This document shows positions 40,420-49,397 of a stretch of 64,000 nucleotides of DNA, one piece after another. The DNA is from [Ruminococcus] lactaris ATCC 29176. GTDB taxonomy: Bacteria > Bacillota > Clostridia > Lachnospirales > Lachnospiraceae. The notes below the pieces were generated by a model. That model had not been told where the DNA came from. It searched no databases and saw nothing but the letters and a program-made list of their open reading frames with translations. How positions within the stretch are numbered: the first letter of the stretch is position 1; each line of letters opens with the position of its first letter. A program made the translations under genes and the position numbers. Location: assembly GCF_025152405.1 (NCBI RefSeq), contig NZ_CP102292.1:1612001-1676000 (forward strand), written 5' to 3'.

Positions 40420-41490
40420 TTACGGCTGTCTCTTATTTGGATCGTTATCCAGTCCTAATTCCCGGCTCAGGCTCTGCGTAAGCAGGAGATCATCGGTTCT
40501 TCGTTTCACTTCTTCCCACTCCGTTTCCTGTTCCTCCTGCTCTCCCACATCTTTATCTTCTTTTTCCTGCGTATGCTCAGTAATATGCTTTACTGTCTTC
40601 TCCGGGGTTGCAACAACAACCTTTGGAACAGCCTTTACATAATAATAGTATTCGTCATCCTCAAACTGTACTCTCTCGGTTCTTGAATAATCCACCGAAA
40701 AGAAAACCAGTTCCAATACAAATCCAAGAAGGATTCCGATAATCGAACTCAGAATGATCGTTCCATAAGAAATATGAAGTTCTAATACCATATTTCCCGC
40801 TGTCGCAATGATTATGCATACCGCTCCCCCTGCAAAAGATGCAATCTTCCACGCATGATCCACCGCACGGCTGCGGATCAGATTCACAACCAGTACTCCG
40901 ATTGCTACAGCCAGTACCATCAGCCACATCTCTTTTCCAGCAATCACCTGCTTTGCAAAATTCATCAGACCATTTGTCAGCCCATCTGTCTCTTTTAATG
41001 CCGTAGCTGATCCCTTAACAAAATGAAGCATATAATAAGATATCACTCCACAGGATGCAGGTACAACCCACACCGGAGTTCCAAGAAGTCCAAACAGAAC
41101 CGGTATGATAAATGGAATCTTCAACGCACATGCCAATGCACTCACCAGGATCAGCCACGCTTTTTCCGGTGTAAATCTGAAATAAAAAATATACATCAGA
41201 AGGAAAATAACGGCTGATACGATTGCAATCGGCAATGACAATGTATAAAAATGTACCAGGATCAATGCCGTAGCCGCAAGTACCATAATAATCACAGGGA
41301 AAAAAGTGCAGACAACTGCAAGCCCTAATGTGCAGAAAATGGATGCGGCGTTCTTCATAAATCCAACATTGGAATTGATCTGCCAGAACACAAACAGTCC
41401 CAGCAGAAACTGTGCCGCCTTCTGGATATAAATAGAATAGGAAGCATAAATCTGCTTCAACCGTTCTCTTAATACAAGTATACTACTCAT
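40420..41490 (-). CDS. Conserved multi-pass membrane protein of unknown function
   Basis: I do not recognise a named family. The 356-residue protein has about eight hydrophobic segments in residues 18-270, and a cytoplasmic-looking acidic tail (about 275-356) with YYYYVKAVP, a run rich in Glu, and SRELGLDNDPNKRQP. It is 41 bases upstream of cdaA in the same direction and overlaps the next upstream gene by 8 bases, so it may belong to the c-di-AMP operon. Ribosome site AAAGGAG. A link to wall or ion homeostasis is only suggested by position. Confidence 0.72.
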   Translation of the reverse strand: MSSILVLRERLKQIYASYSIYIQKAAQFLLGLFVFWQINSNVGFMKNAASIFCTLGLAVVCTFFPVIIMVLAATALILVHFYTLSLPIAIVSAVIFLLMYIFYFRFTPEKAWLILVSALACALKIPFIIPVLFGLLGTPVWVVPASCGVISYYMLHFVKGSATALKETDGLTNGLMNFAKQVIAGKEMWLMVLAVAIGVLVVNLIRSRAVDHAWKIASFAGGAVCIIIATAGNMVLELHISYGTIILSSIIGILLGFVLELVFFSVDYSRTERVQFEDDEYYYYVKAVPKVVVATPEKTVKHITEHTQEKEDKDVGEQEEQETEWEEVKRRTDDLLLTQSLSRELGLDNDPNKRQP

Positions 41491-41899
41491 GCTCTGCTTT
41501 TCTCCTTTTGCTCACCTTTTCCAGTTTTACCAAACCTCTATAATAACTTCTTACATTCTCTTTTGCTTTCTGATGCTTCTTTTTATAAAAAGATCCAGCC
41601 CCGATTCCATACAAAATCAGTAACGCAAGATAGACTCCTACCACGATCACACCCAGCAATACCAGCTTTATAAACGTAAGATCCTCTAATAACGTATCTG
41701 ATGCACATACTGCAAATAATGCTGCTGCCAGTCCATATCCGATTGTGATCCCGATCAGCGTAATCCATTTTTTCAGGCTCGCATAATCCTTTTTATAATA
41801 TCCACTGATCTGTATATCCTTTTCTATCCCCTTTTTTTCGCAAATCGCAAGTTTCGTCATCAGACGTATCCTGTTCTCATCCAACATATCCGCGTCCAT
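41483..41899 (-). CDS. Small membrane protein of unknown function
   Basis: A 138-residue protein with a charged N-terminal part (ENRIRLMTKLAICEKKGIEKDI), two hydrophobic segments at about 50-95, and a basic coiled C-terminus (YYRGLVKLEKVSKRRK). No family recognised. It overlaps the next gene by 8 bases and lies just downstream of the 194-bp element at 41941. The start could also be at the ATG four codons in. Confidence 0.68.
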   Translation of the reverse strand: MDADMLDENRIRLMTKLAICEKKGIEKDIQISGYYKKDYASLKKWITLIGITIGYGLAAALFAVCASDTLLEDLTFIKLVLLGVIVVGVYLALLILYGIGAGSFYKKKHQKAKENVRSYYRGLVKLEKVSKRRKAEHE

Positions 41900-41940
41900 G
41901 CCCTCTCTTAAATAATTCCGTTCTTTTCTTAATTATATTT

Positions 41941-42134
41941 GATGCCAGGGTCAAAAGGTCTGACACCACGTGTGCTCGCACACTAGTGGTAGAATGACCT
42001 TGTGACCCGCCCCAATATGAGCATAAAAGTGGGGCGTAAGCACCACGATATGCGAATGTTGGGTAGGATTGTGGGAGCACGTAGTGCGTAACAATCCGTA
42101 GGTATCATAGTCAGGGGCTTTTGACCCTGGCATC
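41941..42134. repeat. 194-bp structured interspersed element, copy A (possible structured RNA or MITE)
   Basis: The ends are a perfect 17-bp inverted repeat, GATGCCAGGGTCAAAAG and CTTTTGACCCTGGCATC. Inside are a hairpin at 41957-41999, a long stem 42011-42018/42056-42063 carrying GCATA/TATGC and an inner hairpin (42029-42046, GTAA loop), and a hairpin at 42066-42097 with GCAC/GTGC tip. The element is flanked by the 8-bp direct repeat TTATATTT (41933-41940 and 42135-42142). Ungapped alignment with copy B gives about 35 differences in 194, many compensatory. Located between the comF-like gene and a small membrane protein gene. Confidence 0.85.
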
Positions 42135-42157
42135 TTATATTTTAGTATATCATATAC

Positions 42158-42844
42158 CTATCTTTCTTGTCCAATGCTTACCGTTAAAAAGTAGACATTT
42201 TGAACACCTGCTCTTTTTAATATTCCTGCAGCATGTTCCATCGTACTTCCTGATGTATAAATATCGTCAATCAGCAGGATATTTTCAGGAAAATCGCTGC
42301 TGCTCCTCACTGCAAATGCTCCCTGCAGTACTTCCATCCGCTCTTTTCTGTCAAACAGCTTCAGTGGGCGGGTATTCCTGATCCTCAGCAACCGATCCGT
42401 ACACACCGCAATCCCGGTTCTCTTTCCCAGTTCACGTGCCAGGATTTCCGCCTGATTATAGCCTCTTTTTCTTTTCCTTTTCCAGTGAAGCGGAATCGGC
42501 AGGATCAGCCCAATCTTCCACTCTTTCAGTTTCTTTTCATATTTTTCCGCCAGTTTTTCCGAAAAGACTGATCCATAACATCGTTTATTATGATACTTAA
42601 ATCGGTATAATGCATCCGATACCGGTTTCTGATGCAGCCAGAGGCTCCTTCCCTGTGTGATATAAGATTTCCTTTTTGCACAGTCCTCACAATATTCTGC
42701 CACTTCATCTTTCAGCATTTTCCCGCAACGCATGCAACGTGGTTCTCTGATCCATATCATTTTCTTTTCACAACGGCAGCAGATACTCTCTCCGACTTTT
42801 CCGCAAAAAATACATCGTCCGGGATAGAGCAGATTCAGAATCAC
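42158..42844 (-). CDS. comFC: ComF family phosphoribosyltransferase-like protein
   Basis: A 228-residue protein with an N-terminal zinc finger (CIFCGKVGESICCRC, CMRCGKMLKDEVAEYCEDC) and a phosphoribosyltransferase domain with GYNQAEILARELG and the PRPP loop ENILLIDDIYTSGSTM. ComFC homologues support DNA uptake during transformation, though in this group they occur also outside competence operons. Located 26 bases after the recD2-type gene in reading order. Confidence 0.92.
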   Translation of the reverse strand: MILNLLYPGRCIFCGKVGESICCRCEKKMIWIREPRCMRCGKMLKDEVAEYCEDCAKRKSYITQGRSLWLHQKPVSDALYRFKYHNKRCYGSVFSEKLAEKYEKKLKEWKIGLILPIPLHWKRKRKRGYNQAEILARELGKRTGIAVCTDRLLRIRNTRPLKLFDRKERMEVLQGAFAVRSSSDFPENILLIDDIYTSGSTMEHAAGILKRAGVQNVYFLTVSIGQER

Positions 42845-49203: not shown

Positions 49204-49397
49204 GATGCCAGGGTCAAAAGGTCTAAGCCCACATGAGCTTGCTCATAGGTGGGTGAAAGACCTTAGGAACCGCCCCGATATGAGCATAAAAGTGGGATGA
49301 TAATCCCACGATATGCGAATATTGGGTAGGATTGTGGGAGTGCGTAGCACGGAGCAATCCGTAGGCATCAAAGTCGGGGGCTTTTAACCCTGGCATC
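49204..49397. repeat. 194-bp structured interspersed element, copy B
   Basis: Same length and layout as copy A at 41941, in the same orientation. Terminal repeats GATGCCAGGGTCAAAAG and CTTTTAACCCTGGCATC pair at 16 of 17 positions. Stems corresponding to copy A are kept by paired changes: ATGAGC/GCTCAT in the first hairpin, GTGGGAT/ATCCCAC (49292-49309) in the middle, and GTGC/GCAC (49340-49350) in the last. No matching direct repeat flanks this copy. It lies between uvrB and uvrA, ending 6 bases from the uvrB stop, so it would be inside a uvrBA transcript. Confidence 0.85.

Follow-up and report, generated by a model that had tools for sequence, protein, structure and literature searches.

In the Bacillus cereus group, the repeats bcr1-bcr3 are short, MITE-like, present in up to 130 copies per genome and often located in untranslated regions, and bcr10 and bcr18 of the bcr series have a conserved RNA structure (PMC3446304, PMC6542083). 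The mobility of the bcr repeats is tied to TTTAT motifs and they are confined to one species group, unlike the element described here, which makes 7-8 bp duplications, ends in terminal inverted repeats (TIRs), is spread over a bacterial family and has an insertion sequence (IS) with the same ends. In Coxiella burnetii, the MITEs QMITE1 and QMITE2 give rise to sRNAs, and QMITE2 is 150-190 bp long with 7-11 nt direct repeats; the parts of that report drawn on here describe them in one species, at sites mostly common to strains, and report no cross-genus covariation (PMC5896051). Clostridiales-1 RNA (RF01699) is filed in Rfam as an sRNA. The main text of Weinberg et al. 2010 names it in one table, as not cis-regulatory, and leaves mobility unmentioned (PMC2864571). 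Our search of openly licensed text, with the main text of the 2010 paper, found no paper treating RF01699 as mobile, and literature searches for Lachnospiraceae MITEs and for structured RNA associated with non-autonomous transposons returned nothing. What is new here is that the element is a known RNA family, has a probable IS partner and carries an RNA that is conserved though unneeded in cis for movement.

The window, a 64,000-nt stretch of the [Ruminococcus] lactaris ATCC 29176 genome, contains copies A and B of the element (Table 1), which match RF01699 with 144.1 and 150 bits (gathering 48). The core of every copy belongs to the Clostridiales-1 RNA family, and the Rfam model ends 27 nt before the element end, with most of the 3' hairpin and the 3' TIR outside it. 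Copy A is short (194 bp), non-coding and bounded by GATGCCAGGGTCAAAAG and CTTTTGACCCTGGCATC, the perfect 17-bp inverted repeat reported in the preliminary description, and the 8-bp direct repeat TTATATTT noted there is indeed present on both sides. Copy B has one mismatch in its 3' end and was correctly described as lacking a matching flank (ATAATATA versus ATTAAATT). The first bases of the element serve both as TIR and as the 5' strand of helix P1, whose 3' strand ends ~27 nt before the element end. The last stretch forms a separate hairpin with its 3' arm in the 3' TIR, and other copies build it from the alternative stems GTCGGGG/CCCCGAC and GTTGGGG/CCCCAAC through compensated changes. The hairpin resembles a terminator, but with ATC and then the target following it, it has only a weak T tail. 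No promoter-like site was found upstream on the plus strand of copy A.

Table 1 Features of copies A and B, in window coordinates.
Feature	Position	Strand	Basis
Left target duplication, 8 bp TTATATTT	41933..41940	.	Sequence; single TTATGTTT at relatives' empty sites
Copy A, complete 194-bp miniature transposon (probable)	41941..42134	+ (by RF01699 strand)	Ends, flanks of all copies, empty sites
5' terminal inverted repeat GATGCCAGGGTCAAAAG	41941..41957	+	Its GATGCC is also the 5' strand of RNA helix P1
RF01699 Clostridiales-1 RNA core	41940..42107	+	144.1 bits (gathering 48); covariation
3' terminal hairpin GTCAGGG-loop-CCCTGGC	42110..42131	+	Beyond Rfam model; 3' arm within 3' TIR; terminator-like, weak T tail
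3' terminal inverted repeat (reverse complement of GATGCCAGGGTCAAAAG)	42118..42134	-	Sequence of ends
Right target duplication, 8 bp TTATATTT	42135..42142	.	Sequence; empty sites
Promoter-like TGGACA-18-TATACT upstream of gene 41483-41899 (-)	42144..42173	-	Consensus match; relatives conserve the -10 region
Copy B, complete 194-bp element between uvrA and uvrB	49204..49397	+	No matching flank

The genome, a single contig of 2.73 Mb, contains 109 RF01699 matches. Flanks were examined for all of them, and the 84 copies with both ends were used for duplication counts. Directly against GATG...CATC, an exact 7-bp direct repeat is found in 47 of the 84 and an exact 8-bp repeat in 13. A control that combined the left flank of one copy with the right flank of another (right flanks shuffled), and so kept the AT-rich target preference, gave means of 1.3 (7 bp) and 0.25 (8 bp); exact 7-8 bp duplications thus number 60 against ~1.6 expected. 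The other 24 two-ended copies, among them copy B, have no exact duplication, and 14 of these are one mismatch off. The targets are AT-rich, ATTTTAT, TTTACAT and ATCTTAT being typical. Of 39 two-ended copies sampled from other species and other genera, 27 are flanked by a repeat of 7-10 bp, which measures 7 bp in 20, so the proposed check on the flanks of other copies found duplications both here and elsewhere. Since 7 bp is the usual length, the 8-bp duplication at copy A is real, yet a minority form: the preliminary description was right about copy A, while the duplications in the genome are mainly of 7 bp (47 versus 13).

Empty sites in relatives point the same way. At the comF site, the element is absent from 13 of 13 congeneric loci, and 11 of them have the target in one unbroken piece (TTATGTTTTAGTATATCATAT or near it), whereas the source genome reads TTATATTT-element-TTATATTTTAGTATATCATAT, with two target copies. 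Because 11 relatives keep a single uninterrupted target, the 8-bp repeat at copy A is a genuine duplication; together with the shuffled-flank control, these single-copy sites counter the earlier caution that it might be chance in AT-rich DNA. Copy A sits in a formerly continuous site upstream of a gene, with 8 bp of target duplicated. The comparison had also been suggested for the uvrBA intergenic region, where the element is missing at the loci of 29 relatives; their genes lie 8-127 bp apart, against 242 bp here, and the spacers are too divergent in sequence to reveal the exact target. A second, independent type of empty site exists within the source genome itself: a 110-bp palindromic repeat is uninterrupted in over a dozen places and elsewhere split by the element, with query positions 36-42 on both sides of it, a 7-bp duplication. 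In all, the genome carries insertions of the element at some 80 to 100 sites; we infer transposition itself from sequence comparison.

We then looked at which transposase could act on such ends. A congeneric relative carries a 978-bp element with ends GATGTCGGGGTCAAAAC/...AAG and a duplication of 7 bp (ATGCCAT). It encodes a 205-aa transposase remnant, in which a Pfam scan of this remnant identified a PF13751 DDE domain (E 3.5e-10, 40.7 bits versus a cut-off of 25.1). Scanning genome contigs with the remnant gave 24 loci, nearly all in Lachnospiraceae. Several are intact ISs ~1.85 kb long. They end in GATGCTGGGGTCAAAAG and GATGCTGGGGTCAAAAC (AAC end), contain a reading frame of 536-546 aa and are flanked by duplications of 7 bp (ATGTCAT, ATGACAT, ATATCAT); thus the element has nearly the same ends as an autonomous transposon, at the IS loci L246-L258 with GATGCTGGGGTCAAAAG ends. 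The best NCBIfam model for the IS transposases is IS1182 (NF033551), at 110-126 bits; as the cut-off of 270 is not reached, we term the partner IS1182-like. The best model and the PF13751 domain in the remnant link it to the IS1182 family, from which it departs in scoring under the model cut-off and in leaving 7-bp duplications. IS1272, of the IS1182 family, replaces palindromes and makes no target duplication (PMC5678879). The IS gene is flanked by little over 100 bp per side, too little to hold the RNA; a simple internal deletion of the IS therefore does not account for the element, and the two are alike only over ~17-24 bp at their ends. An IS1182 copy in another genome (L238) was rejected as partner, its ends (ATGAGTTGCCCGAC) being unlike those of the element. 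As side observations, the IS1182-like IS at L252, L254 and L246 occupies palindromic targets CAATGWCATTG, and at L246 and L254 the two IS flanks differ at the central base only (ATGTCAT/ATGACAT).

In the source genome, neither a relative of the IS transposase nor a PF13751 protein was found, and most genomes that bear the element lack the IS, as do most element-rich ones. Across 200 genomes the IS is so rare that its co-occurrence with the element speaks neither for nor against the partnership. As the source genome is without the transposase, we infer the partner solely from the ends and the duplication length. These absences, and IS targets like ATGNCAT where the element has targets like ATTTTAT, speak for a MITE moved by some transposase other than the IS1182-like one. 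We regard this as rather unlikely, because the 17-bp ends nearly agree, IS and element both make 7-bp duplications, and at L246 the left IS end continues to agree with the 3' end of the element further inward (GATACTGGGGTCAAAAGCCCCCAA). An IS1182-like DDE transposase is thus the likely mobiliser, and the element would have been moved in trans by an IS since lost from this genome.

Together, these results make it highly probable that copy A is a non-autonomous DNA transposon (MITE) with a Clostridiales-1 RNA body, likely moved in trans by an IS1182-like DDE transposase. The MITE reading already offered in the preliminary description is upheld by the inverted ends, the duplicated target, the empty sites, the many copies and an IS with matching ends, and neither of the two checks proposed there refuted it. 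We propose that the transposase, acting in trans and now gone from the genome, would have bound the GATGYYRGGGTCAAAAG ends, cut out or copied the element, and inserted it into AT-rich targets after staggered cuts 7-8 nt apart. In the weakest step of this model, the RNA core would be kept since its transcript matters, either by rendering insertions beside genes harmless or by acting in trans.

The copies show a strong orientation bias. With fork direction set by dnaA at position 1 and a GC skew switch near 1.1-1.2 Mb, 63 of the 84 two-ended copies have their RF01699 strand directed against the replication fork (one-sided p ~2e-6). This bias mostly tracks gene direction: the element is antisense to both neighbours in 36 cases and sense to both in 13. 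As a post hoc reading, selection against a terminator within operons would explain it. Copy A ends 9 nt beyond the conserved -10 box of a minus-strand promoter-like site upstream of gene 41483-41899 (-). If the site works as a promoter, the leader of this gene would open with ~194 nt of the element's minus strand, and not with the Rfam strand. Inward-facing promoter-like sites seemed enriched beside insertions relative to plain shuffles, but the excess is weak against a control with swapped upstream parts (12 versus 8.8; 11 versus 6.6), and we make no claim of promoter targeting.

Deletion derivatives without half of the RNA core have nevertheless moved. Six 113-nt copies have one common deletion junction that removes 81 nt of core, and they lie at different sites with exact or near-exact duplications. 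Two of them are inside the 110-bp host repeat and could have travelled with it; the remaining ones cannot. Four 75-nt copies have lost more of the core, and two of the four have exact 7-9 bp repeats. Because such derivatives are found repeatedly, at separate sites and flanked by duplications of their own, movement does not require an intact core in cis. The same derivatives bear on a SINE-like, RNA-mediated route, in which a transcript running from the 5' end to the 3' hairpin would be reverse-transcribed and then inserted: helix P1 starts at the element's first bases, a terminator-like hairpin closes it and the orientation is biased, but internal deletions recur with both ends kept and the RNA fold lost, and both ends are inverted repeats matching DDE-type IS ends with equal duplication length, which leaves this route very improbable.

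For the RNA itself, covariation was analysed in 43 sequences, mostly one per genus (~40 genera). The 61 Rfam pairs are formed to 90%, with 463 double-change cells (156 on average in shuffles). When the analysis is restricted to the 29 well-aligned pairs, pairing reaches 98.3% of cells versus 86.5% in shuffles, and compensated changes occur in 24 of the 29 versus a shuffle mean of 9.5, the shuffles themselves ignoring relatedness; G-U outnumbers A-C by 13 to 3, and sliding the partner by 1-3 columns lowers pairing to 21-41%. Selection has kept the inner RNA fold throughout a bacterial family. RNA folding in a mobile element had been called unusual beforehand, which is partly right; bcr and QMITE are partial precedents, and it is the strong cross-genus covariation that is uncommon among them, as far as the cited papers show. 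A rival view, in which an RNA gene or regulatory leader became dispersed through duplication or vertical inheritance and the repeat at copy A arose by chance in AT-rich DNA, would suit this covariation, the listing of RF01699 as an sRNA gene, the unrepeated flanks of copy B and those copies in other genera that lie just upstream of a gene and lack a recognisable 3' end. It is refuted for most copies by duplications far in excess of the composition-keeping control, by the single-copy empty sites in relatives and by the paralogous ones in the genome, which leaves it very improbable.

If the element is a transposon, why is its RNA conserved by compensatory changes when derivatives without it still move? 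Because the deletion derivatives moved, core conservation stems from something besides a cis need for movement. Our best guess is that a transcript of the core is what selection sees, through an effect on host fitness or an action in trans. More speculatively, and in our view doubtfully, Clostridiales-1 RNA might be a selfish or mutualist RNA whose transcript, acting in trans on, for example, transposase expression or the host, lets full-length elements outcompete mobile, RNA-less derivatives. If that were true, a bacterial transposon family would be maintained by RNA-level selection.

An Rfam sRNA family spread over much of the Lachnospiraceae, a gut family, can thus be placed among the transposons, with a probable partner IS, an identity that accounts for its copy number and irregular gene neighbours. 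Copies are dispersed and polymorphic: the element is present in 112 of 200 sampled genera of Lachnospiraceae, and within one genus the number of matches ranges from 0 to 109. In the source genome, orphan ends were considered as autonomous elements, but the 15 that were inspected all resemble relics left by truncation or rearrangement. The 110-bp palindromic repeat (e.g. 261965-262074; 62 matches; ends GGATGGCTATCAACTAAGATA) sits inside longer inverted repeats and has received the element at two positions. In other genera, four copies (L296, L299, L301, L306) have no recognisable 3' inverted repeat, and a ribosome-binding site with a start codon follows shortly after their end; they are possibly domesticated or truncated. 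Tandem or overlapping Clostridiales-1 RNA copies occur in other species and genera (L297, L289, L312, G052:C74:12536-12836).
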